Of a DNA stretch of 64,000 bases, positions 10,783-24,671 are shown piece after piece. Source of the DNA: Gemmatimonadaceae bacterium (GTDB taxonomy: Bacteria > Gemmatimonadota > Gemmatimonadetes > Gemmatimonadales > Gemmatimonadaceae). Under the pieces are notes generated by a model. The model was not told the origin of the DNA, did not search any database, and was given only the letters and a program-made list of their open reading frames with translations. How positions within the stretch are numbered: position 1 is the first letter of the stretch; the number at the start of each line of letters is the position of its first letter. The position numbers and the translations under genes were made by a program. The DNA lies in assembly GCA_025934775.1 (NCBI GenBank), contig JAICWO010000012.1, positions 1 to 64,000 on the forward strand, in the 5' to 3' direction.

Positions 10783-12486
10783 CTAGCCCCCGAGCTTCCG
10801 CCGCTCCCCGGACATGAGCGGTGCGTCGTCCGCCGCGATCGCGTCCTGCGTCTGTTGCGCGAGCTCGTCGACGAGGCCGCGGAAGCGCCGCTGGCGCTTG
10901 CGCACGCTGCTCATGAAGGAGAATCGCGCCAGCGCTCCCACGCCAACGATCGCCGCAGCCGCGAGGCCCGCCAGCTTCGGCGCGGGCCAGAAGCCTCCGA
11001 TCATGCTGACGCCGATCGACGTGAGCCACGCGCCGCCCGCAATGCCGATGATGCGCGCGCGGCGCGCCAGCGATTCCATGTTCTCGGCGACGCGAATCGT
11101 CGTCTTGCCGTGCCGCGCGACGACCGACACGTGCGCGGTCCGTTCGCGCGCGAGCGCCGACCAGGTGAGCGAACGCCCGACCGCGTTCACGGCGCCGGCC
11201 ATCGACATGCGACGGCGAATCGTCTCCACAAGGAGATCGAACTCGCTCTCCGGCAGCTCGCCGTTGACGACCGCTTCGTACTCGACGTTCGTCGACGCGC
11301 CGTAGAAGCGCGACGCCGGCACGCTGCGATCGGTCGTGACGATCGCGCCGCGCGCCGCGCCGGTCCCGCGCAAGAGTCCATGCTCCGCCATCGCGTGCTC
11401 GACGTACTGCGCGGGAATGCCGGCTTCGACCGCGGCATCGCGCACGGCGCCGAGCGCGTAGCCCGATGTTCGCGTCGCATCGGCGGTCGCGTCGCGCGCG
11501 CCGATCGCCGGCGGCGTGCGCGTCACGACTCCGGTCTGCGCTTGGAGCGCGGCGGCACGATCCCAGATCTGCTGCGCCTCCGTTTCCGATACGAGCTTGG
11601 GCGCGCTCGGCGACGCATCTGCGCGAATGGCGTCACGCGCGACTTCGCCTTCGATGCGACCGAGCGCGTCCGCCATCTCGTCGCCGCTCGCGAAGCGCTC
11701 GGCTGCATCTTTCGCGAGGCATCGATCGATGATCTCGGCGAGCGCGCGCGGCGCCGACGGAGATACCGCGAGCACCGCGGGCGGCGCTTTGTTGACGTGC
11801 GCCACGAGCACCGCCGAGGCGATGCTCGAGTCGAACGGAAAGCGGCCCGTGAGCTCGTAGAATCCGACGACACCGAGCGAGTAGAGGTCGCTCCGACCGT
11901 CGAGCGGCGTGCCCTCGACTTGCTCGGGGCTCATGTAGTAGACCGTGCCGAGCACCTGGCCCGTCGCCGTGAGCGGCGCCGACTCGGCGAGCCGCGCGAT
12001 CCCGAAATCGGTGACCATCGCGCGACCCGTGGCGCGCTCGATGAGAATATTCTCAGCCTTCACGTCGCGATGCACCACGCCATGCGCATTCGCATAGCCC
12101 AGCGCCGACGCGACGTCGCGGAGATGGCGCAGTACGTCGCGTGGATCGATGTGCGTGCGGTCGCGCACGAGGTCCGCGATGGATGCGCCATCGACGTAAC
12201 CCATCGCGAAGAACACATGGCCGTCGATCTCGTCGGCCCGGTAGATGGGCACGATGTTGGGATGCGACAGCTTGGCCGCGGTCCGTGCTTCGCGGAGGAA
12301 GCGTTCACGGATGGCGAGGTCGCCCGCGAGATGGGGCGGCAGCGTCTTGATCGCGACCGGGCGGTCGAGCCGGAGGTCGCGCGCGAGATAGACGATGCCC
12401 ATGCCGCCGCGTCCGATCTCGCGTTCGAGCTCGTACTGGCCGGCGAGTGCGGCGGCGAGGGAGGCGAGGTCGGGGGAGGGGGGCAT
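10783..12486 (-). CDS. Ser/Thr protein kinase with C-terminal membrane region
   Basis: A 567-residue Hanks-type kinase. It shows glycine loop G25-R-G-G-M-G, VAIK with K47, catalytic loop HRDVKAEN (H about 139) and DFG at about 160, then GTVYYMSPEQ. The catalytic loop has alanine where proline is usual (K-A-E-N for K-P-x-N), a tolerated variation. The kinase ends near residue 280. About 300-440 is a soluble region of unknown fold. Two hydrophobic segments (about 475-520) follow, then a basic C-terminal tail. Unlike the kinase at 3465 there is no TPR part. It follows the zinc-ribbon/GYF cluster on the same strand after a 197-bp gap, so it may be transcribed separately. Confidence 0.9.
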   Translation of the reverse strand: MPPSPDLASLAAALAGQYELEREIGRGGMGIVYLARDLRLDRPVAIKTLPPHLAGDLAIRERFLREARTAAKLSHPNIVPIYRADEIDGHVFFAMGYVDGASIADLVRDRTHIDPRDVLRHLRDVASALGYANAHGVVHRDVKAENILIERATGRAMVTDFGIARLAESAPLTATGQVLGTVYYMSPEQVEGTPLDGRSDLYSLGVVGFYELTGRFPFDSSIASAVLVAHVNKAPPAVLAVSPSAPRALAEIIDRCLAKDAAERFASGDEMADALGRIEGEVARDAIRADASPSAPKLVSETEAQQIWDRAAALQAQTGVVTRTPPAIGARDATADATRTSGYALGAVRDAAVEAGIPAQYVEHAMAEHGLLRGTGAARGAIVTTDRSVPASRFYGASTNVEYEAVVNGELPESEFDLLVETIRRRMSMAGAVNAVGRSLTWSALARERTAHVSVVARHGKTTIRVAENMESLARRARIIGIAGGAWLTSIGVSMIGGFWPAPKLAGLAAAAIVGVGALARFSFMSSVRKRQRRFRGLVDELAQQTQDAIAADDAPLMSGERRKLGG

Positions 12487-12683
12487 GGCAGAAGAGTGAG
12501 CTGGCGCGTTCCGCTGTCGATCGATCCATCGACGTCGGGAATCAGGGCGCCCACCTCAAGCTACACGCTGCTCCGATGTGCATCAAACTACGATCCGGCC
12601 CACCGATTCTCACGCTTCAGAGGGCTGTGCGGCCGATGAATCGGTGCGGATGTCTCACAGCGCGCTCAAGCCATGCTCCCGCC

Positions 12684-13151
12684 TTACTCGACGACGTAGG
12701 TACTGACGAGCTTGTCATGCCAGCCTTGGCGATCGCGATCGAGCAATATCCAGATGTAACCGAGGCCAAGGATGAATCCGGATATGAATTTTCCGATCCA
12801 TTCGCGGACGAACATTTTTCCGAACGATGCGCGCTGGCCCCGTTCATCGATCACGCGCATGCCGAGCAGGTTCTTGCCAGGCGTCGTGCCTTTGCTGAAC
12901 AGCATCAGTGCCCAAACGATATACCCCAGCAGTAGTAGCATGAAAAATCCGCCACTCCCCAGTGCTGCCGCGGTCGAGGCGATCATCACAATTGCGAATA
13001 TTGGAATGCCAAAATCGAGGAAGTACGCGCCGAGGCGCTTCCCCGGCGAAGCGAGGTGACCGTCGATCGAGCTCACTGCGCTCGCGTGACAAATTGGGCA
13101 CCAGCGAATTCCCGGCGGGAGGTCGGCGCTACAGGCATTACAAGCTGACAT
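12684..13151 (-). CDS. RDD-family membrane protein with N-terminal zinc ribbon
   Basis: A 155-residue protein. The N-terminus has two CxxC pairs (C-N-A-C and C-P-I-C, residues 4-21), a short zinc ribbon. The rest is an RDD-type membrane domain: R39-L-G-A-Y-F-L-D-F, membrane helices at about 45-62, 68-88 and 120-136, and the conserved GTTPGKNLLGMRVID element between the second and third. RDD proteins are inner-membrane proteins of mostly unknown role. It is the last gene of the minus-strand cluster from 17626 and follows the CsgG-like gene by 59 bp. Its base composition is less GC-rich than that of its neighbours. Confidence 0.85.
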   Translation of the reverse strand: MSACNACSADLPPGIRWCPICHASAVSSIDGHLASPGKRLGAYFLDFGIPIFAIVMIASTAAALGSGGFFMLLLLGYIVWALMLFSKGTTPGKNLLGMRVIDERGQRASFGKMFVREWIGKFISGFILGLGYIWILLDRDRQGWHDKLVSTYVVE

Positions 13152-13210
13152 GACGAGCCCTCACCATCGCGTATTAGGAGCGAAGCGATAAATGGTTGGA
13201 TGGCGCTGCA

Positions 13211-14590
13211 CTACCGCGCGTATGCCTCTAATGCCGTGGACAGCTTGCGCGTAAGATCTGCGGCCGCTCTGTTCACCATGTCCTCCGTGACCGGCGCATG
13301 CTCCTCTTTGACGGTGACCAGCCGCTGCGGGTCGCCCGAGAGAGCACGCTGATCGCCTTCGTACGTGCCCCACTGCGTCGCGAATCGGTAGGCGCCGCCA
13401 AATTGCTGTGTTTCTTTGAGTGCGCCCGTTTTCACGTCGACAATCTTATACGAGCCGGATATCTCGACGCTGGCCTTGCGATCATACAGCGTCGCCAGTG
13501 CGACGACCGTGTCATACACACATCGATTGCTCGCTTTGCCCTTACTGTCGACTACCCGTTCCGTGCGGTCACAGACTTGCGCAGCCTGCTTGACCAAGCT
13601 GCTTGTCGTCTGCTCCGGCGTCACGATGATCTGAGTGATCTCGCCGGTCAGCATTTCGTGAACGCCCAACAGCTGCCCGATTTTGGCCACAGTCTTTTGA
13701 TCGAACATGCTCGTCGAGCCGAGGCGTTGCTCGGCGATGACACGTTCCGTCTGGTCGCGCGGCACGATCTCTAGGAACTCCATGGCTTGCGCGTCACGCA
13801 TCACGCTGCTTACCACGCCATCGACGACCGTGGCGCTCACGTCGCCAAATCGGCCCGCCTTGCCGCTCCGATCCTCAAAGGGAATGATGGCAAGGCGCTT
13901 GACACCAGCCTTTCGTGCCCGCTGATATGCAGTGGCCGCGTCCTTATATCCGGGCATTGCTTGCTGGGCGGCAGCGAATGCCTTTGCTGCCTGCTTCTGT
14001 GCTTCGACACCAGACTGCTTCACTAGGAATTCGCCTTCTTGGTAGTATCCCTCGGCGGCGAGCGCACTACCGTCCTTGTACCCTGGTACATACGAGCCCG
14101 CTAGCCGGAACTGCTCGGCGGCCAGATCGCGACTCGTCATGCCGGCCGTTCCGAACAGCCGTCGCCCGGCTTGATAGTGGGCTTCGGCCGCGGCCGCCTT
14201 CGCATCTCCAACGGCTCGCGAGTAATCCTGGGTCGGAATACTCACACCGCTGGGCAGCGATTTTACCGCGTCGTTCACGGCGATCAAACTCGTGTATTCG
14301 GCGACGACCCTGTCCCATTTGAATTCCGCAGCACTCGCCTTTGCTTCGTTGATCTTGTCGAGATGTGACTCGACAGCCTTCGGCTCGACTTCGCGAATGA
14401 AAGTGGCTGCCTCGTTGTAGTCGGGTTTGAGCCGGAGCGCCTTCGCCAGGTCCTGTACGGCTTGATCATAGTTGCTGTTTGCGTAGCTAGTATGAGCACT
14501 CTGATACAGCGTGCCATATGGCGTCGCGCACGCAGTCGATAGGAAGAGCAGAGTGGCGGCCGATATCCGGGCGCATGAGCGGATCGTCAT
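13211..14590 (-). CDS. CsgG-like lipoprotein with TPR-like N-terminus
   Basis: A 459-residue lipoprotein. The start at 14590 (GGAG upstream) gives a signal ending L-S-T-A-C, cysteine near residue 20. Residues about 25-250 are helical repeats of TPR type (YDQAVQDLAKALRLKPDY and similar; YQEGEFL; YKDAATAYQRARK). The C-terminal half starts with RLAIIPFEDRSGKAGRFGD, the hallmark opening of CsgG/TolB-like curli-assembly folds, and includes an EMLTGEIT strand. CsgG relatives are outer-membrane or periplasmic lipoproteins; pore formation here is only a possibility. It belongs to the six-gene minus-strand cluster. Confidence 0.85.
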   Translation of the reverse strand: MTIRSCARISAATLLFLSTACATPYGTLYQSAHTSYANSNYDQAVQDLAKALRLKPDYNEAATFIREVEPKAVESHLDKINEAKASAAEFKWDRVVAEYTSLIAVNDAVKSLPSGVSIPTQDYSRAVGDAKAAAAEAHYQAGRRLFGTAGMTSRDLAAEQFRLAGSYVPGYKDGSALAAEGYYQEGEFLVKQSGVEAQKQAAKAFAAAQQAMPGYKDAATAYQRARKAGVKRLAIIPFEDRSGKAGRFGDVSATVVDGVVSSVMRDAQAMEFLEIVPRDQTERVIAEQRLGSTSMFDQKTVAKIGQLLGVHEMLTGEITQIIVTPEQTTSSLVKQAAQVCDRTERVVDSKGKASNRCVYDTVVALATLYDRKASVEISGSYKIVDVKTGALKETQQFGGAYRFATQWGTYEGDQRALSGDPQRLVTVKEEHAPVTEDMVNRAAADLTRKLSTALEAYAR

Positions 14591-14645
14591 CGTAGTCTCC
14601 AGGTTCAAGGTGCGACACCCAGCGAAATTCAATTTTGCGAGCGGG

Positions 14646-15086
14646 TCAGGTGAGCGGCGCCGGAGCACCGCATTCCGGGCACGGATCTGTTCGGGGCTCG
14701 AGTGGGACTCGACATTCCCTGCACAGGCTCAGCCCGTTGTCCGGAACTGCCGTCGCGAGCGATGCGAGAGCAGCGCGCGGTGTTGATGGCCGGGTATCCG
14801 TTCGTGAGCTCCCGCCGAGAACGGAGCCAACGAACCACCCCCCGATCGTGCCAACCGCCGCGCCGGCAGCCATCACATTGAACGACGTCTGCGCGGTGCC
14901 TACAAGCAATTGATCGAGGCCGGAGAGGTTGGCGCCGCGCGAAATCACCGTCTCGAACGGCAGTTGACCCACAAGCAAGACCGAGGGCCGCAATGCGAAC
15001 CCGATCGCAGCGCCGATCACTAGGCCAAGAAGCGCCAGTACGATCGCTGAATCCGAGCCGGAGTGCGATGACGTCGACGAATGCAT
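14646..15086 (-). CDS. Small membrane protein with C-terminal zinc ribbon
   Basis: A 146-residue protein starting at an ATG 2 nt after the stop of the GYF gene (TGA-TT-ATG), so it is very likely translationally coupled. A hydrophobic helix lies at about residues 16-36 and a glycine-rich membrane-like segment at about 72-97. The C-terminus carries C-R-E-C and C-P-E-C pairs, a zinc ribbon at about 124-143. No family is recognised. A longer in-frame extension upstream overlaps the GYF gene and looks non-coding. Confidence 0.75.
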   Translation of the reverse strand: MHSSTSSHSGSDSAIVLALLGLVIGAAIGFALRPSVLLVGQLPFETVISRGANLSGLDQLLVGTAQTSFNVMAAGAAVGTIGGWFVGSVLGGSSRTDTRPSTPRAALASLATAVPDNGLSLCRECRVPLEPRTDPCPECGAPAPLT

Positions 15087-15088
15087 AA

Positions 15089-15775
15089 TCAAATACTCGC
15101 CATCACTTGGTGGCGGATATCGGTACCAGCTCCATACGCGACGCTTGCACTTCCGACGAGTGCGACATAGAGTCCGATCCCGGCAGACGAAAGGACCGAC
15201 GAACCGACGGAAATCAGCGCGGCGCCAATTGCGGTCCAGCCGGCGGCGACGGCAAGCACGTAGCGCATTGCAAGCAATCGTTCCGGCGCAGACGCGCGAG
15301 CGAGGCGCTGGTGCGCAGCGAGGCACCCGATGAAGCTGATCGGGTGTAACCACAGCAGCGGCGCATGGCCAGCGAGCGCGAGTCCAGAGATGCTCGAGCC
15401 AAAGAGCGAGCCCCACGGGAGCAGCATCGCGAGCACGGCAGCACTGGATCCGAAGACCACGGCCTTGTCGGAGGTTGAGGCAATCGAGAGGAGCGGCGCC
15501 AGCGGCTCGGCACCACGCAACGGCGCTTGCGGAGCCGCGACATGGTCTCTCGCGCGCGTTGAGTAAGCGGCACCGCTCGATGGCTGATAGGCCGCGGAGG
15601 AACTCGCGGCTGAAGACAATAGCCTATCGATCGTGCTCCAAGACGTGCTTCCCTCTTCGATTAGAGGAGTGTCGCCTTGGAGAGTGCCGGCTCGATACAA
15701 TCTCAGGACGTCGTCGCCGCTCATCGGCCCGACAGTTTTCTGATTAGCGTCCGCGTAGAAGAAGCGCATGGTCAT
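15089..15775 (-). CDS. GYF_2-domain membrane protein
   Basis: A 228-residue protein. The N-terminal 55 residues match the GYF_2 (DUF4339) pattern: F-F-Y-A-D-A-N-Q-K-T-V-G-P, then L-Y-R-A-G-T-L and a final S-T-S-W-S-T-I. GYF_2 domains are thought to bind proline-rich peptides. Several hydrophobic segments follow (about 103-122, 127-150, 165-190 and 195-215). The start codon lies 3 nt after the stop of the upstream gene. Proline-rich stretches are present in the neighbouring zinc-ribbon protein (15779-16774) and the lipoprotein at 16781, which are possible partners by inference. Confidence 0.8.
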   Translation of the reverse strand: MTMRFFYADANQKTVGPMSGDDVLRLYRAGTLQGDTPLIEEGSTSWSTIDRLLSSAASSSAAYQPSSGAAYSTRARDHVAAPQAPLRGAEPLAPLLSIASTSDKAVVFGSSAAVLAMLLPWGSLFGSSISGLALAGHAPLLWLHPISFIGCLAAHQRLARASAPERLLAMRYVLAVAAGWTAIGAALISVGSSVLSSAGIGLYVALVGSASVAYGAGTDIRHQVMASI

Positions 15776-15778
15776 TTG

Positions 15779-16774
15779 TCACTGGTGGCGAAAGTCGGCA
15801 TCTGTGAATCTGAGCGCGAGTCGGCCTGATCGTGAATCCACCGACGCACCTATGTTCTCAAAGGTTGCAGAGTCGCCCCCGGCCGTGACCGCACGTACGT
15901 TTGAGTTTGCATATAAGCTGAAATAGCCGATAAATCGGCGTGTCGCCCCTGGAGGGATGCTGCAGGTGCAGTCCTGGCTTAAGGGTGCGCCATCCGGCGC
16001 CGCGAGCTCGGCGTCTACGCGGATGTACAGTGGGACGCTCGCGCTGTTCGTGATGAGCGGTGCGAATCGTGCGACGCTGCCGTCGCGCGCGTTCAAGTCA
16101 GCGCTGCCAGTGCGCCATGGATACGCCGGAATCGAAATCGCGACCATTCCGCTCGTCCACTGCCCGTGAGCATCGCCCGCCACTGAGTCGGTTGATCGGG
16201 CGATTCGCCATTCAACTGACGATACCTTCCGGTTCGATAACCGAAACACCTCTGAGTTCGCTGCGTTGACGCCGATCCAGGATCCCTCGATGTTGAGCTC
16301 GACCCCGGTCACCAATTCGTTGCGAATCACAATGCGCGGATGTGACCATGACCACCATCCGTACGCGGCCGCTGCTCCGGTCGCCAGCGTGGACGCGACC
16401 ACTAGGGCGCTGAGCAATCCGCGCGCGCGCGGGCGCGGGAGGCCAACGGGCGCGCTCGGCGCATGATACGCCCCTATGCTCGAATTCGTCGCGGGAGATG
16501 GGGATGGCTGAATGGGCTCGGTGAGGACGCTCGCTCTCGGGCTCGGCGACGGAGGGGCGTACTTCTGCCAGTCGGCCGTGTGCTCCTGACCGCGAGCGGC
16601 GCTCAATGTCTCAGCGTACCGTCGCGTCGTTGGTGGCGGCGGCGGCACCCACGCCGGACTCGATGCCTGCGGCGCTGACGCCTGAGGCTGTCGGTACTGC
16701 GGCGTACGACAATGTGGACACGCTCTGGCTTCGTCGCTGATTCGTCGCCCGCAGGTGGAACACGGCTTGAGCAT
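15779..16774 (-). CDS. Zinc-ribbon membrane protein, proline-rich
   Basis: A 331-residue protein. It opens with a zinc ribbon (C-S-T-C at residues 5-8 and C-P-H-C at about 19-22), followed by a Pro/Ser/Ala-rich linker to about residue 115. One membrane helix (LLSALVVASTLATGAAAA, about 119-137) precedes a soluble C-terminal domain (about 140-331) that should be exported and contains a C-T-C pair. The shape is a cytoplasmic zinc finger, tether, membrane segment and periplasmic domain. Spacing to the flanking genes is 6 and 3 bp, consistent with an operon. The function is unknown. Confidence 0.8.
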   Translation of the reverse strand: MLKPCSTCGRRISDEARACPHCRTPQYRQPQASAPQASSPAWVPPPPPTTRRYAETLSAARGQEHTADWQKYAPPSPSPRASVLTEPIQPSPSPATNSSIGAYHAPSAPVGLPRPRARGLLSALVVASTLATGAAAAYGWWSWSHPRIVIRNELVTGVELNIEGSWIGVNAANSEVFRLSNRKVSSVEWRIARSTDSVAGDAHGQWTSGMVAISIPAYPWRTGSADLNARDGSVARFAPLITNSASVPLYIRVDAELAAPDGAPLSQDCTCSIPPGATRRFIGYFSLYANSNVRAVTAGGDSATFENIGASVDSRSGRLALRFTDADFRHQ

Positions 16775-16780
16775 AGCCGG

Positions 16781-17626
16781 TTACGAGGTTTTCGTGAGCG
16801 CCGACGACAATGTCAGCACGAGTGGCGCACCCGACGGGATGCACAAGTCGTAACCACGGCGCGCCATTGAGACGCCAGTTCCGACGGCGGCGCCAGCTGC
16901 TGCGCCTTCGGCCGCGGCTTTCACATCTCGCTTTGCAAGAAAGCCAACGATCGCGCCGCCAATGGCGCCCTTGACGATGTTCGCCTTGTTGATGGGCCGC
17001 TTAACGCGATCGACCTGCGGGATGCGCACTTGCGCATTCAGCGGGATGGACGCGTCATCCCAGCGTATCGTGTGCGCCTGAATGATGAACGGTTGCGCGG
17101 CCGACGTGTCGGCTGGTGCCACGTTCACCGATTGTAGATCAAGAATGACGATGGTGCCAGCGGGCAGCGTCGCGTTTGCGCCTGCGTAGACGTCTTGGTC
17201 GAGCGTTGCGAGAATTTCATCGCCGGCTTTCGCCTTATTGTCGCAAATCGCAGCGGAGACGCGGACCGTCATCTGAGTTCCGCTGGCGACTGTCGGTGCA
17301 GGTACCGGCGCCGCTACGGCTTGCATCGACGGCTGAATGGCGGCCAGCGAGATTGACGAGTCCCGCGCTGGCGCGCTCGGACTGCTGGGAGCCTTGTCAG
17401 CGCGCGGCGTCGGCTGCTGCGCGACTCGAGTCTCACGTGCAGGAGCTCGTGGCGGCGGCGCCGCTACAGGCGCGTCGTTCAGCTGCGGCGGTGTTGTGGC
17501 TGTATGAGACGCCAGTTCAAGGTCCGCGGCGGTCGTGTCGGTTTGCACAGTCCGCGCCCTATCACATCCGATCAGCACAATGATTGTGGTGAGGTATCGA
17601 AGAGTTTTCCTACCGTGCAGCGGCAT
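16781..17626 (-). CDS. Glycine-zipper lipoprotein
   Basis: A 281-residue protein. The start at 17626 is preceded by AAAGGA and gives a short lipoprotein signal ending V-L-I-G-C. A long Pro/Ala/Thr-rich stretch follows (about residues 30-130). A beta-rich region (about 135-215) resembles TrbI/VirB10-like or envelope-spanning barrels only loosely. A glycine zipper comes next (AIGGAIVGFLAKRD and EGAAAGAAVGTG, about 225-260). Glycine zippers are common in outer-membrane-associated proteins. It is the first gene of the six-gene minus-strand cluster and is divergent from the SARP-like regulator across 202 bp. Confidence 0.75.
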   Translation of the reverse strand: MPLHGRKTLRYLTTIIVLIGCDRARTVQTDTTAADLELASHTATTPPQLNDAPVAAPPPRAPARETRVAQQPTPRADKAPSSPSAPARDSSISLAAIQPSMQAVAAPVPAPTVASGTQMTVRVSAAICDNKAKAGDEILATLDQDVYAGANATLPAGTIVILDLQSVNVAPADTSAAQPFIIQAHTIRWDDASIPLNAQVRIPQVDRVKRPINKANIVKGAIGGAIVGFLAKRDVKAAAEGAAAGAAVGTGVSMARRGYDLCIPSGAPLVLTLSSALTKTS

Positions 17627-17794
17627 AAGCGCGTCCTTTCCCGGAAGCATGAATCGCCGAGGTCTTACCCACGGCCCCCGCTTGCCGGCATTAGCATTTC
17701 GGTATACCTTCGCGGCTGTCCAGCACACGTAGGCGACCTAGCCGGTTCGCGGAGACCGGGGCGTTTGGTTTCGCAGGCTCGTACCTAGCCACCA

Positions 17795-17816
17795 AGCGTC
17801 CATTCAGCGTCCATCC
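17795..17816 (+). promoter_or_regulatory. 11-bp direct repeat upstream of SARP-type gene
   Basis: AGCGTCCATTC (17795-17805) is followed directly by AGCGTCCATCC (17806-17816), a nine-base identity repeated with 11-bp period. SARP-family regulators typically bind direct heptamer repeats with this spacing. The pair ends 12 nt before the GTG start at 17829, so an autoregulatory site is plausible but unproven. Confidence 0.4.
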
Positions 17817-17828
17817 GCCGAGTATTCC

Positions 17829-20800
17829 GTGTCGATCGCGGTTCCCGAACAGCCTCCGCTCCTGCGTTGCCTGGGAGCGGCATGTGTAAGCGCGTCTCCA
17901 TCCGAGCACGCGCAACCCACGGTGCTGCTACCGCTTGGGAAGCCGCTCGCGCTGCTCACGTACCTCGTCCTCGCTCCCGAGCGGACCGCGTCGCGCGAAC
18001 ACCTCGCGGACTTGCTGTGGGGTGATCAAGACCGTACCAAGGGCCTTCAGTCGGTGCGCCGCGCCCTGTCATTCGTGCGGACACGCGTCGGTGGATGGGT
18101 CATTTCGGCTGATGGACAACGGTGTACAGTGTCCGAATATCTCGACGCTGACATTAAGATTTTCACATCATTGGTCGATGCCGCCCAATTCGACGAGGCG
18201 CTCCAATGCTATCGCGGAGACTTCCTGGCAGGCTTTGCGTCGCCCGGCTCCGGCGAATTCGAGGCGTGGGCCGACGTCGAGCGCGCCTATTTTCGGTCCA
18301 AGGCCGTTCGAGCGGCTGAAGTGGCCTGCCGGTCGGCCATGGACACGGGTCGGTCTCCCACGGCCAAGTGCGCCGCGGTTCGACTCCGCGCGATCGACCC
18401 AAACGGGCAGCTGGGCTGGCGCCTTCTATTAGAGTCGCTGGCTGCAGCCGGCGATCGCGTGGGTGCGATTGCCGAAGCGGCAAAGTTCGAAGCGTGGCTC
18501 CGCGCCGAGGGCGCGGAGCCCGAACCGGCCTCTCGAGCCGCGATTCGCCTGGCGCAGCACACGGCGGCGACACCCCCGCGTGCGGAAGCAGCCATCGACC
18601 CGCCGCTGACCCCTGACATCGTGGGCCGCGAGCGGGAGTTTGCCGCGATGCTCGAATCGTGGCGAACGGCTGCGGCGGGGACCACACAGGTCATCGCCGT
18701 CCTCGGCGGGGCAGGTCTCGGAAAGAGCCGGTTGCTGGAATCGGTCGCGCAACGACTGCGCTCGATGAGAAGGCAGCCCGTCGTCGTCCGAGCCTATCCG
18801 GGTGAACGTTCCATCCCCGGTGCCTTCATCGGCAACGTGGCATATGAAATTGCTAAGCTACCCGGCGCGCCGGGCGTCGCGACTGGAATCGTGAGCCACC
18901 TCGTCGCGCTCGACCCGCGCCTTGCCGAGCAGTACCCGGGCGTCACACCGGCAGGTCAAACCGGATCTACGATCGGCTCCCGAGTGATCGCGCTGCGCGA
19001 GTTGATCGCGACAGTGTGCGAAGAAGCACCGGTCTGCTTGCTCCTCGATGACGCCCATTGGCTCGACGACGAATCGCGCCAGATTCTCGGCGCCGTGATC
19101 GCCCGAATGGGTCACGTGCGGCTGCTCATCGCACTGGCGAGCCGCGATGTGGGCGCGCTTCCTCCGCTAGGCGACACACACTTGACGCTCGAGCTCCCGA
19201 CCCTCAATCCTGCCGACGTCGGCGCCCTCATTGCAAGCATCGGCGCTCTCCCGGCCGAGGCCGACTGGCCGGGATTTCTCGTTGCGCGGGTGATGGCTGC
19301 TTCGCGCGGAATTCCGCTCCTCGTGTTGGGCGCGCTCCGCGAGCTGGTCACGGCAGGTGTCCTCGAGCTGTCCGACGGAGCCTGGACCACGCCGGACGAG
19401 CCGCGCCTCCGAGAGCGGCTCAGGAACATCAACGCTGTCGCGAACCGCCTGCGTGCTCTTTCCGCGCAAGCACTCGATCTCCTCGTCGCCTGCAGCATCG
19501 CGGGCCGGCCACTCTCGCGCGAACATGTCAACGCAATCGCCAGTCAGCTCGGCGATCCAGACTCCGTACTCGAATTGGATCGGTCCGGTCACCTGAAACA
19601 AGTGGGCAGCGGGATCGAGGTGTCGCACGACGTCATCGCCGAAACCGCGGTTGAGATCGCGGCATCGGAGTCTCGGGATCGCGCGCGGAGGATTCTTGGC
19701 TCCGTGCTCGTGCACTCCGACGACGAGGCGCTCGTCGAACACGGCATCCGTCACCTTGCCGCCGTGCGTGACCACGAACTTCTGCGCGAACCGCTCGAGC
19801 GCATGGCCCGATCCAAGCTCGCCAAGCGTCGCATCGCGGCGCGCGACTTCGTCGCGCGGCTCACCGGACTTGGTAGAAACGACGATCTTGTCGTGCAGCT
19901 CGCTCGAGCACTGCCGCGAGCCCTGCGTTGGCGGCGTTGGCGGAGTCTTGGTGCGGCTGGGGTGGTCGTTATTGCGCTCGGCACGAGCGCATTCATCGCC
20001 GAGGAGCGGCGGCGAGATCACGGCGGCAAACCAACAATCGAAATCCTGGCGGCCGTCGGCCCACTCACGGCGCGACATGCGCGCGTGTCGCTCGACATGA
20101 CCGATTGGAGTTCGCGCGCGCCCCTGACCGCGTCGTTCGGGAACGCCTCGATCGATAGCGTCAGACGCGCGGCGCGTGGCGCGTGGTGGCGACCGGGCGC
20201 GCCGTCATGGGCTGTCCAGATCCAGACTGATACCGGCGGTGCTGATGTCGCCGAGATCCTTCCCAACGGACAGCGGCGCTGGATCGCGCAGTCTCACGCG
20301 GAGGAGAATCCGGGCGCTTGGTCGCCAGACGGCCGATACTTCGCGGTCATCACATCGGCGTTCGCCAAGCCGCCAGGATCTTCCATCGGCATCATCGATC
20401 TGAAATCGCGGACGATGCGCCCGCTTCGGTCGGTGGGTCGTGATCCCGAGCACCTCGCGTGGAGCCCGGACGGTACGCGGATCGCCTACATCACGAACGA
20501 TACGGCGAAGAATGCCCGCAACGTCTGTCAGATCGGTATTGATGGTCTCGGCGCGACTTGCCGCGGCGGCTTCCCAATCGGGACGCAGATTGATGGATGG
20601 TCGGACGAAACGAGCCTTGTCACACAGGTGGGCAGCCCGGGATCTCTGGTCTCCTACGATCCCGCGGCGAAGACGATCGAACCGTTAGGCATCGAGAACG
20701 TCGTCGCGAGCGACGTCTCGCCCGACGGCGATTGGCTGTACTACTCGCGCCAGTCCAGCGACGGGGTCGAGACGTACGTGACCCCCACCGCGCGGCCACT

Positions 20801-21848
20801 CGATGCGCGACTCATCGCGCCGACTGGACGCGGTCTCGACACCAAGGCGAGCGCGATCTATTGGGCGGGTCGATTCCGACGTCGCGAATACTTGGACTCA
20901 GTATTCATCGCGGCGACGTCCGACACGATCGAGCTGCGAACCGATTTTCACCTGACTCCTCGCGGGTTCTCGAGCGACGGCCACGACACGCCGTTGTACG
21001 CCGCGCGATGGCGTTCGAGTGACACGACCATCGCGTCTGTTGATAGCCTCGGATACGTGTCCGCCAAGCGCGCGGGTGTGGTCGAGATTTCACTTTCGGC
21101 GGGTGGCTGGAGGTTGGCAACCCGCCGCTTCATCGTGCGTGGCTCGCGACCCGTCGTCGTGCTCCGGGAAAACTGGCTCGACCCATTCGCGCATCGATGG
21201 ATTCCGTTCGGCATTCCCTATCCAACAGTCGTCAAGGATTCATTGTTGGGCGACGCGTTCTTCAACAATGGCGACGGCTGGTATTTCAGCGGCGCGTATC
21301 TCGCTCATCCGATTGATGCGCGGCGTGGGCTCGCGCTCGAAACGGCCGTGCGGACGCCGATCACACGACCCATCGAGCGCTACCTGGACATTTCCATCTT
21401 TCCGATTCACGCGATCGCCAAGCTCCGGTCGGAGTGGGATCATCGGTCGGGATATTTTCCGTACCGATTCGGCACGGGTGGCGAGTGCGAGTTTGCCTAT
21501 CCTTCGGGCGAGGGAGAGGAAAGTCAAACCGGTGCGGCGCCTGTCGGCCCGTTGACGCGCTACGACCATGGGCGTCCCGCACTGGCCAGCGGGATGCCAG
21601 CGCGGCTGCGTATCCAGGTGTTCGCGGATGGATCGTGCGGTGTCGCGCTCGAGGGCGAACGCCCGGTGATCCTCGACCGGCGGATGCGCGGACTCGACTC
21701 GGTCACGATCCTGATCCAAGGCAACTCGGTCGGTACAAAGCTGCTGGTCGGTCCGATGACGATCACGCAGGGGGTGCCGGACGGCGTCGACTGGCTGCAT
21801 GCGGTCCCGCGGCCGGTGCCTCGGGGACCGCAGACGGGAGATCCGTGA
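17829..21848 (+). CDS. SARP/BTAD regulator fused to AAA ATPase, membrane helix and propeller
   Basis: A 1339-residue multidomain protein starting with GTG. Residues about 30-95 form an OmpR-type winged helix (GKPLALLTYLVLAPERTASR, then LADLLWGDQD). About 100-245 is a BTAD helical domain (DEALQCYRGDFLAGF). An AAA/STAND ATPase follows, with Walker A GGAGLGKS near residue 295 and a Walker B-like CLLLDDAHWLDDE near 400. One hydrophobic helix (GVVVIALGTSAFIA, about 709-724) precedes TolB/PD40 propeller repeats (WSPDGRYFAVIT near 827, WSPDGTRIAYIT near 878). A Big_2-like segment (about 1057-1097) and a C-terminal beta-rich domain follow. This resembles AfsR-like regulators but with an exported sensor half. 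It is divergent from the zinc-ribbon/GYF cluster, a likely target. Confidence 0.88.
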   Translation: MSIAVPEQPPLLRCLGAACVSASPSEHAQPTVLLPLGKPLALLTYLVLAPERTASREHLADLLWGDQDRTKGLQSVRRALSFVRTRVGGWVISADGQRCTVSEYLDADIKIFTSLVDAAQFDEALQCYRGDFLAGFASPGSGEFEAWADVERAYFRSKAVRAAEVACRSAMDTGRSPTAKCAAVRLRAIDPNGQLGWRLLLESLAAAGDRVGAIAEAAKFEAWLRAEGAEPEPASRAAIRLAQHTAATPPRAEAAIDPPLTPDIVGREREFAAMLESWRTAAAGTTQVIAVLGGAGLGKSRLLESVAQRLRSMRRQPVVVRAYPGERSIPGAFIGNVAYEIAKLPGAPGVATGIVSHLVALDPRLAEQYPGVTPAGQTGSTIGSRVIALRELIATVCEEAPVCLLLDDAHWLDDESRQILGAVIARMGHVRLLIALASRDVGALPPLGDTHLTLELPTLNPADVGALIASIGALPAEADWPGFLVARVMAASRGIPLLVLGALRELVTAGVLELSDGAWTTPDEPRLRERLRNINAVANRLRALSAQALDLLVACSIAGRPLSREHVNAIASQLGDPDSVLELDRSGHLKQVGSGIEVSHDVIAETAVEIAASESRDRARRILGSVLVHSDDEALVEHGIRHLAAVRDHELLREPLERMARSKLAKRRIAARDFVARLTGLGRNDDLVVQLARALPRALRWRRWRSLGAAGVVVIALGTSAFIAEERRRDHGGKPTIEILAAVGPLTARHARVSLDMTDWSSRAPLTASFGNASIDSVRRAARGAWWRPGAPSWAVQIQTDTGGADVAEILPNGQRRWIAQSHAEENPGAWSPDGRYFAVITSAFAKPPGSSIGIIDLKSRTMRPLRSVGRDPEHLAWSPDGTRIAYITNDTAKNARNVCQIGIDGLGATCRGGFPIGTQIDGWSDETSLVTQVGSPGSLVSYDPAAKTIEPLGIENVVASDVSPDGDWLYYSRQSSDGVETYVTPTARPLDARLIAPTGRGLDTKASAIYWAGRFRRREYLDSVFIAATSDTIELRTDFHLTPRGFSSDGHDTPLYAARWRSSDTTIASVDSLGYVSAKRAGVVEISLSAGGWRLATRRFIVRGSRPVVVLRENWLDPFAHRWIPFGIPYPTVVKDSLLGDAFFNNGDGWYFSGAYLAHPIDARRGLALETAVRTPITRPIERYLDISIFPIHAIAKLRSEWDHRSGYFPYRFGTGGECEFAYPSGEGEESQTGAAPVGPLTRYDHGRPALASGMPARLRIQVFADGSCGVALEGERPVILDRRMRGLDSVTILIQGNSVGTKLLVGPMTITQGVPDGVDWLHAVPRPVPRGPQTGDP

Positions 21849-22841: not shown

Positions 22842-23579
22842 ATGTCCGCCTCCGCCTCTCTCAACTGTCCGAACTGCGGCGCTCCGACCAGCGCCGACGC
22901 GACGCGCTGCGCCTACTGCGGCTCCGGCCTCACCGCGGCGCCATGTCCCTCGTGCCTCGGCTCGATGTGGCTCGGCGCCGAGTACTGTCCGCATTGCGGC
23001 GCGCGCGCGATCGTGCCGACGGAGACGAGCGACCCGGCGCTCAAATGCCCCGGATGCAACGCGGACATGCCGCGCGTGCAGCTGGGTGCGATCGCGATGC
23101 ACCGATGCGCGAGCTGCGATGGCGCGTGGCTCGATCCCGAGACGTTCGTGCAGCTGTGCGCGAATCAGGAAGAGCGCGGCGCGGTGATGGCGACGTTCGG
23201 CGCGGACGTCGCGGCGACTCGTGTGAGTACGGGACCGGTGCGCTACTTCCGCTGTCCCATCTGTCAGAAAACGATGAATCGCTCGAACTTCGGGCACACG
23301 TCGGGGATCGTGATCGACACGTGCAAGGGTCACGGCGCGTGGTTCGAGCACGACGAGCTTCGCGGCGTGCTGCAGTTCGTCGCGTCCGGCGCGCTCCAAC
23401 ACCAGGCGTCGTTCGACGCGGCGCACCCGGACCGGGCAACCGTCGTCCTCGGGGCCAACATTCTCGGCGCGCCCGCGACCGGCGCGAACGCGAATGCCAT
23501 GCGTGTGATGCTCGACGTGATGAGCAACGACTCGGCGTCCTCGCTGCTCCACGGCTTCTTCACCTCGCTGTTCGGCTGA
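22842..23579 (+). CDS. Multi zinc-ribbon protein (zf-TFIIB type)
   Basis: A 245-residue cytoplasmic protein with three zinc-binding areas. First is a double ribbon (C-P-N-C, C-A-Y-C, C-P-S-C, C-P-H-C, residues 9-54). Next is a zf-TFIIB module (C-P-G-C then C-A-S-C-D-G-A-W-L-D, about 68-98). The third is similar (C-P-I-C then C-K-G-H-G-A-W-F-E-H-D-E-L, about 138-175). No membrane helix is seen. It precedes the SPFH gene by 15 bp. A comparable zinc-ribbon/SPFH partnership is known from Bacillus YdjG-YdjI, so a shared membrane-stress role is a reasonable inference. Confidence 0.85.
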   Translation: MSASASLNCPNCGAPTSADATRCAYCGSGLTAAPCPSCLGSMWLGAEYCPHCGARAIVPTETSDPALKCPGCNADMPRVQLGAIAMHRCASCDGAWLDPETFVQLCANQEERGAVMATFGADVAATRVSTGPVRYFRCPICQKTMNRSNFGHTSGIVIDTCKGHGAWFEHDELRGVLQFVASGALQHQASFDAAHPDRATVVLGANILGAPATGANANAMRVMLDVMSNDSASSLLHGFFTSLFG

Positions 23580-23594
23580 CTTTAGGAGATACTC

Positions 23595-24671
23595 ATGACA
23601 CTGCGCGACTGGATGGCCGGCCAACTCGTCGACATCATCGAATGGGGCGACGATACCGACGACGCGATGGCCTGGCGCTTCACGCGGCCGCAGAACGAGA
23701 TCAAGAACGGCGCGCAGCTCATCGTGCGGCCGGCGCAGATGGCGATTCTCATCGACGAGGGCCACATCGCGGACGTGTATCAACCCGGACGTCACGAGCT
23801 GAGCACGGGCAACATGCCGATTCTCTCGTCGATCCGCGGCTGGAAATACGGCTTCGCGAGCCCGTTCAAGGCGGACGTGCTGTTCATCAGCACCAAGCAG
23901 TTCGTCGGCCGCAAGTGGGGCACCGGGAACCCCGTGATCCTCCGCGACCCGGAGCTCGGCCCGGTGCGCCTTCGCGCGTACGGCACCTACGCGCTGCGCG
24001 TCTCGGATCCGCGGACGTTCGTCCGGGAGCTCTCCGGCGCGAACGCGACCTTCATGGTCGACCAGGTCGCCGACCAGCTCCGCGATCTGCTCGTCGCCAA
24101 AGTCAGCAGCGTTCTCGCGAGCGGCGGGCTCTCGGTGTACGAGCTCTCGAGCAAGTACGGCGAGCTCGCGTCGCGCGCGCAGGAACAGGCCGCGCCGGCG
24201 TTCCAGCAATACGGTCTCAGCGTGACGCAGGTGGTGATCGAGAACATCTCGCTCCCGGCCGAGGTCGAGCAGACGCTCGATCAGAAAACACGAATGAGCA
24301 TGTTGGGAAACGACCTCGATCGCTACGCGAGCCTGCAGTCGGCCGACGCCATCCGCGACGCGGCGCGCAATCCGGGCGGCGCGGCGGGGGCGGGGATCGG
24401 CCTCGGCATGGGCGCGGCGCTCGGCAACCGGGTCGCGGCTGCCGCCGTGGCGGCGCCGGTGACGACACCGCTCACGCCGCCGCCGGTGCCGTCCACCGCG
24501 TGGTACTATGTCGTCGGGCGCGAACGGAAAGGGCCGGTCGATGAAGCGACGATTCGTGCACCGGGCACGATCGCGGAGGACACGCTCGTCTGGCATTCCG
24601 GCATGAGCGCGTGGACGGCGGCGCGGCAGGTGCCGGAGTTGGCGGGGATGTTTCCGCCGCCGGTGGGGTGA
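23595..24671 (+). CDS. SPFH-domain protein with C-terminal GYF_2 domain
   Basis: A 358-residue protein. An AGGAG lies just before the ATG. Residues about 1-270 are the SPFH/virion-core-like family (ydjI type): W-G-D-D-T-D-D-A-M-A-W-R-F near the start, then a PSVL-like band-7 fold (LSTGNMPILSSIRGWKYG) and a helical segment. A glycine/alanine-rich linker (about 255-300) leads to a GYF_2 domain (W-Y-Y-V-V-G-R-E-R-K-G-P, then T-L-V-W-H-S-G-M-S-A-W-T). Band-7 proteins oligomerise at membranes. The GYF_2 domain would recruit a proline-rich partner. It is likely co-transcribed with the upstream zinc-ribbon gene. Confidence 0.88.
   Translation: MTLRDWMAGQLVDIIEWGDDTDDAMAWRFTRPQNEIKNGAQLIVRPAQMAILIDEGHIADVYQPGRHELSTGNMPILSSIRGWKYGFASPFKADVLFISTKQFVGRKWGTGNPVILRDPELGPVRLRAYGTYALRVSDPRTFVRELSGANATFMVDQVADQLRDLLVAKVSSVLASGGLSVYELSSKYGELASRAQEQAAPAFQQYGLSVTQVVIENISLPAEVEQTLDQKTRMSMLGNDLDRYASLQSADAIRDAARNPGGAAGAGIGLGMGAALGNRVAAAAVAAPVTTPLTPPPVPSTAWYYVVGRERKGPVDEATIRAPGTIAEDTLVWHSGMSAWTAARQVPELAGMFPPPVG

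Follow-up and report, generated by a model that had tools for sequence, protein, structure and literature searches.

A predicted one-piece transmembrane SARP-STAND regulator with an outward-facing sensor half and an adjoining SARP-type operator in Gemmatimonadota

The window (the whole 64,000-nucleotide stretch of DNA analysed here, from a Gemmatimonadaceae bacterium) encodes in a single chain what is rather probably a one-component transmembrane SARP activator, in which an exported sensor, a membrane helix and a STAND relay would act on a DNA-binding head placed on its operator, with adjacent genes activated as the outcome. This reading is drawn from the sequence of the protein, from its relatives in other genomes and from the DNA upstream of their genes. 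Coordinates of the protein, its domains, the putative operator and the divergent genes are collected in Table 1.

Table 1. Features of the regulator locus, in window positions; residue numbers refer to the regulator
Feature	Coordinates	Strand	Basis or remarks
One-piece transmembrane SARP-STAND regulator, 1339 aa	17829..21848	+	GTG start, frame open 1339 codons
OmpR/SARP-type winged-helix DNA-binding domain, residues 9-104	17853..18140	+	Profile match AfsR/EmbR, family HMM
BTAD domain, residues 107-244	18147..18560	+	Pfam BTAD above cut-off
STAND/AAA_16 NTPase, residues 263-440	18615..19148	+	Pfam, family alignment
Walker A GGAGLGKS	18705-18728	+	Inside the STAND/AAA_16 NTPase
Helical STAND middle region, residues 444-700	19158..19928	+	Family HMM
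Predicted single transmembrane helix, residues 706-724, SLGAAGVVVIALGTSAFIA	19944..20000	+	Hydropathy; preceded by RALRWRRWR
TolB-like PD40 beta-propeller, residues 801-1008, with C900 and C911	20229..20852	+	Pfam PD40, TolB match
Ig-like (Big_2/LigA-type) domain, residues 1021-1109	20889..21155	+	Family profiles
C-terminal domain (CTD), residues 1110-1325, with C1220 and C1270	21156..21803	+	Conserved in family
Putative SARP-type operator, two half-sites GGACGCT, 11-bp period, GATGGACGCTGAATGGACGCTT	17794..17815	-	Repeat and weight-matrix searches
-10-like hexamer TAGGTA, spaced from the operator as is typical of the family	17782..17787	-	A present, final T absent
Divergent Gly-zipper lipoprotein gene, predicted first target	16784..17626	-	ATG 17626, RBS AAAGGA, lipobox VLIGC
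Rest of the divergent gene run	10786..16774	-	Minus-strand genes beyond the lipoprotein gene

A sequence-only reading of this DNA had proposed that a SARP/BTAD front, an ATPase, a membrane helix and a PD40 propeller with a Big_2-like tail follow one another in one chain of 1339 residues, and this order is borne out by Pfam and family profiles and conserved in relatives. In the window protein, AAA_16 (residues 265-433, 56.8 bits, cut-off 32.6), BTAD (118-237, 28.8 bits, cut-off 22.1) and PD40 (31.2, cut-off 20.9) score above their Pfam cut-offs. Trans_reg_C (40-72) and Big_2 (1060-1089) fall under theirs in the window protein alone and turn up again in 7 and 5, respectively, of the 13 relatives; both calls become firm because profiles made from the family alignment (A1, 13 rows) match known domains. 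The profile of residues 1-262 finds the SARP domain of AfsR (8hvr, 2.3e-10) and EmbR (2fez, 5.1e-6), and that of residues 728-1112 finds TolB (2.5e-27) and the Ig-like repeats of Leptospira LigA (5.7e-8). The nucleotide-binding motifs of the NTPase are well kept: Walker A residues G296, G298 and K299 are present in 49 of 50 copies, and in Walker B (LLDDAHW) D407 is present in 45/50 and D408 in 47/50. Pfam gives no TPR match and no N-terminal TolB domain in the window protein, and the domain order is fixed in the family. The domain boundaries first drawn hold throughout, except that a C-terminal domain had been overlooked: the Big_2-like tail does contain an Ig-like domain (approximately residues 1021-1109), but it is not the end of the chain, which continues into a conserved domain (1110-1325) that had gone unnamed. 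Single-sequence AlphaFold2 predictions, run with no alignment, reached a pLDDT of only 32 for the CTD and 34 for the whole ectodomain, and these models were discarded.

The CTD, about 220 aa long, closes the window protein. Its own sequence has no match in Pfam and its profile no significant match in the PDB; a secreted homologue of the domain matches Laminin_G_3 at 3.7e-5, and the fold is probably laminin-G/concanavalin-like. The CTD profile was positive in 59 of 298 sampled Gemmatimonadota genomes, where its match almost invariably closes an ORF of 1200-1500 aa, in none of 198 sampled Actinomycetota genomes, and in 1 of 141 Myxococcota genomes, where the domain stands alone in a secreted protein. 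The Myxococcota match was rejected as a family member, being a secreted protein with the lectin-like domain alone and without the architecture.

A search of 59 relatives returned full-length matches at 30-35% identity over approximately 1300 aa in many genomes. The order wHTH, BTAD, STAND NTPase, STAND middle region, TM helix, propeller, Ig-like domain and CTD is found in nearly all of the 52 copies read with both ends, a count that, like all family counts given here, is somewhat inflated by sequence relatedness. A search for the same order in Gemmatimonadota genomes, proposed as a check on the first reading, thus found it kept almost without exception, and because full-length relatives occur in many genomes and the order is kept in CTD-bearing ORFs from dozens of genomes, the architecture is not a product of chance. 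A scan of genome contigs returned mostly ATPase-only matches, in actinobacteria. Gene starts and neighbours throughout come from a simple in-house gene finder.

Variants of the architecture were also seen. Two relatives (L202:4239-6947 and L199:3054-7823) are without the STAND ATPase and read wHTH-BTAD-TM-propeller-Ig-like-CTD, which is near the ToxR/CadC plan; the additional 640 aa at the start of L199 was considered as an extra domain, but none is there and the reading frame is probably over-long. Three others (L136, L137, L138) have the cytoplasmic half and the helix in common with the family; their C-terminal part differs, is shorter and gives no match in Pfam. As these pair the same cytoplasmic half and helix with another C-terminal part, the family ectodomain looks exchangeable. 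The operator-like repeat is present with the L136-L138 types too (seen via L025-L027). Pseudopilin-like genes (GFTLxEVLV signals; 22 genes in 4 genomes) stand on both sides of a more distant paralogue whose architecture is the same (L140, G000:C11:1-14000; also L203, L210 and L211), suggesting that this subclade is tied to type II/IV pilin-like systems. One locus (L204:704-8085) has a tandem pair of family genes, the second starting where the first ends, and in another (L133) the family copy is split into two frames of 1095 and 429 aa, by a broken gene or an assembly error. The L103 record, entitled Acidobacteria, probably bears a wrong label, as its genome gives the same phylum sample that a Nocardioides genome gives.

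That the sensor half lies outside and the DNA-binding half inside, as had been predicted, is well supported in silico by the fixed transmembrane segment, charge bias, cysteine parity and the relatives of the outer domains. Residues 706-724 form the one standout hydrophobic segment (family mean 1.71, next best 1.19), at a position fixed across the family; these calls are by hydropathy only, and the helices of several relatives are weak (1.2-1.5). Over 52 members the mean net charge is +3.7 before the helix and -0.2 after it, with 94% of members more positive on the N side; in the window protein itself 6 K/R precede the helix, but another 4 follow it. Cysteines that are gained or lost in pairs are a mark of disulfides in an oxidising compartment. 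Beyond the helix the cysteine number is even in 47 of 50 copies (four in 24 and six in 18, together 42), as against 23 of 50 before it, and this parity, confined to the outer half, argues for ectodomain disulfides. Among 11 close relatives, C900, C911, C1220 and C1270 are present in all, the C-x-C pair 972/974 occurs together in the same 6, and no cysteine conservation of this kind precedes the helix. Each outer domain, moreover, has extracytoplasmic relatives, namely periplasmic TolB, LigA and a secreted Laminin_G_3-type protein.

The sequence-only reading had further suggested that such an architecture could carry envelope signals straight to transcription, an idea that gains support from a SARP-type operator which appears to adjoin the genes family-wide. 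The DNA upstream of 52 family genes was set against that of 372 other genes of the same loci; an 11-bp period was sought because SARPs use it, and the TGACG core and the spacing to a -10 emerged from the data. Period 11 is the only one at which repeats of at least 9/11 identity are enriched (16/52, other periods 1-6/52), and GACG-N7-GACG, again only at that period, occurs in 22 of 52 family upstreams versus 6.5% of the 372 controls (Fisher 1e-10). A weight matrix with the consensus TGACGCTCGtnTGACGC, applied leave-one-out at a threshold of at least 10 bits, recovers 33/52 family upstreams versus 16/372 controls (7e-24). A direct repeat of the TGACGCT type is present in about two thirds of copies, and the 15 of 52 upstreams without a site belong chiefly to distant members. 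Two positions are prominent past the second half-site, an A at +7 and a T at +11. This -10-like A-N3-T is present at that one offset in 17 of 37 sites, as against 0-4 sites for each of 44 other offsets (p 4e-17), with 35 of the 37 site flanks non-redundant. In published SARP promoters the repeats are spaced by 11 bp, with about 8 bp between the final repeat and the -10 (PMC10936776; PMC5930380), and since this period and -10 distance are shared, the family sites have SARP promoter geometry; the window copy is present, with an imperfect -10. Sites occur in both orientations relative to the regulator gene. Of the sites that face away from the regulator, 15 of 18 have a divergent neighbour, versus 8 of 17 of the remaining sites (p 0.035, small numbers), which suggests that each regulator activates either its own gene or the divergent one. 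Shorter SARP-ATPase ORFs that have no helix are mostly without the site, and membrane types with other ectodomains have it, again in small numbers.

In the window, the 11-bp direct repeat AGCGTCCATTC AGCGTCCATCC lies just 5′ of the regulator's start codon. It departs from the family pattern in having GGACG for TGACG and TAGGTA as its -10. No other place in the same genome holds both half-sites intact within the allowed mismatches. The generic operator pattern has three matches in this genome and none in the control, one of them just upstream of a SARP paralogue; the other two were set aside as regulator targets, no link to the regulator having been found for the genes near them. The window operator faces the divergent minus-strand run, a putative envelope operon that starts with the Gly-zipper lipoprotein gene and continues with genes for a Zn-ribbon membrane protein, a GYF_2 protein, a small membrane protein, a CsgG/LpoB-like lipoprotein, an RDD protein and a Ser/Thr kinase. 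Separately, at 22842-24668 the window encodes a Zn-ribbon protein and then an SPFH/Band_7_1 protein with a GYF_2 tail; the divergent run close by likewise encodes Zn-ribbon and GYF_2 proteins. Across the family, divergent neighbours are exported in 8 of 15 cases versus 27%, a weak excess in small numbers. Wide neighbourhoods, mostly of housekeeping genes, show clade-wise synteny only and no conserved neighbour or partner gene, and none of the ten neighbours scanned is a tol-pal gene.

Taken together, a mechanism can be proposed in which the exported half, comprising the propeller, the Ig-like domain and the laminin-G-like domain together with their structural disulfides, would sense the state of the envelope or surface, and the signal would cross by the single helix to the cytoplasmic STAND NTPase. 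The NTPase would, as in AfsR, hold the SARP head (wHTH and BTAD) off or let it dimerise; the active head would then bind the TGACGCT-type direct repeat of 11-bp period, at a place that overlaps the -35 region of a promoter close by, and recruit RNA polymerase. The window repeat would drive the divergent envelope operon led by the Gly-zipper lipoprotein, and because it sits in the leader just before the regulator's start, binding may also damp the regulator's own expression. DNA binding by the window protein, the direction of control and the role of ATP are what we infer from these sequence patterns. In AfsR, the ATPase domain governs the SARP head, two copies of which bind side by side as a dimer over the -35 region (PMC10936776), and by analogy we infer the same ATPase control and dimer binding here.

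Other readings of the same data were weighed. With protein and topology unchanged, activation might come from cleavage of the chain at the membrane, releasing a soluble SARP-STAND fragment, or from a partner envelope protein, instead of an ectodomain ligand. A membrane-tethered activator must reach its DNA, and because divergent partners are often exported a co-sensor is conceivable; yet the operators adjoin the regulator genes, where tethered binding is feasible, as for ToxR/CadC-type regulators, and the search for a conserved partner gene was negative, so that we regard cleavage or a partner as unlikely. The operators might also belong to another regulator such as a paralogous SARP, the gene of the window protein being controlled by them and not controlling. 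Each genome has several SARP-type genes, and related membrane SARPs with other ectodomains carry similar sites; against this, the window variant is unique in its own genome and differs from the generic site upstream of the paralogue, which fits one site for one regulator and makes foreign ownership of the operators quite unlikely.

Far more doubtful is a reading in which the hydrophobic stretch serves as a buried linker and the protein, wholly cytoplasmic, is a large SARP whose TPRs are replaced by a WD40-like sensor. The weak helices of some relatives are in keeping with it, and the large SARPs described so far have C-terminal TPRs and no membrane part in their descriptions (PMC10972967), but the even cysteine pattern begins only beyond the helix, and the charge bias and the extracytoplasmic relatives of all three outer domains speak for a membrane crossing. 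We therefore retain the transmembrane activator as the preferred reading. Its extension to the family is evenly poised in our judgement: these would be lineage-specific one-component receptors of Gemmatimonadota, in which a STAND ATPase relays the state of an exported multi-domain sensor to a SARP head, each gene having its own operator facing itself or a divergent envelope gene, and together they would constitute a membrane-spanning STAND transcription switch.

SARPs, AfsR among them, are familiar as soluble regulators, mostly of Streptomyces antibiotic genes, and their inputs are poorly known. Here the input half is predicted to be exported and so accessible, and the promoter motif common to dozens of relatives offers a direct output assay. 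The setting of a STAND switch by a signal from across the membrane becomes testable, and for the envelope genes of Gemmatimonadota the repeat supplies a candidate regulatory motif.

STAND-WD40 proteins of actinobacteria and cyanobacteria also place a propeller after a STAND ATPase, some with a TM segment between, and bear other DNA-binding or effector heads. Like AfsR and other large SARPs of Streptomyces, the window protein has an N-terminal wHTH and BTAD, a central STAND/NOD ATPase with Walker motifs, and 11-bp direct-repeat operators at a fixed distance from the -10. The winged helix and BTAD place it and its family among the SARPs by sequence, and the STAND/NOD ATPase with Walker A and B agrees with the AfsR type; it differs in the TPR sensor and the solubility of that type, for where AfsR ends in TPRs and is soluble, the ATPase is here followed by a TM helix and a propeller/Ig-like/lectin-like ectodomain. 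With TolB it shares the PD40 propeller (profile match 2.5e-27), but TolB is a soluble periplasmic protein of the tol-pal operon, whereas the TolB-like part here is a domain within a membrane-anchored regulator. ToxR/CadC-type regulators likewise combine a cytoplasmic winged helix, one TM helix and a periplasmic sensor in a single chain, but join the winged helix directly to the TM helix, whereas BTAD and the STAND ATPase intervene in the window protein; it falls outside the strict ToxR/CadC definition, to which L199 and L202 come close. With a DNA-binding domain and at least one TM region in one chain it belongs with the transmembrane regulators as delimited in PMC10269533, the TM region being called by hydropathy only; the main text of that survey of 50,302 such regulators makes no mention of SARP, BTAD or propellers (PMC10269533). 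The earlier statement that AfsR-type regulators are normally soluble fits the literature, and in the limited collection searched no paper describes a membrane SARP, an absence that is not proof. The SARP, STAND and transmembrane-regulator parts are each known; their union in a SARP with a TM helix and an exported propeller/Ig-like/lectin-like ectodomain appears, from its sequence, to be new.
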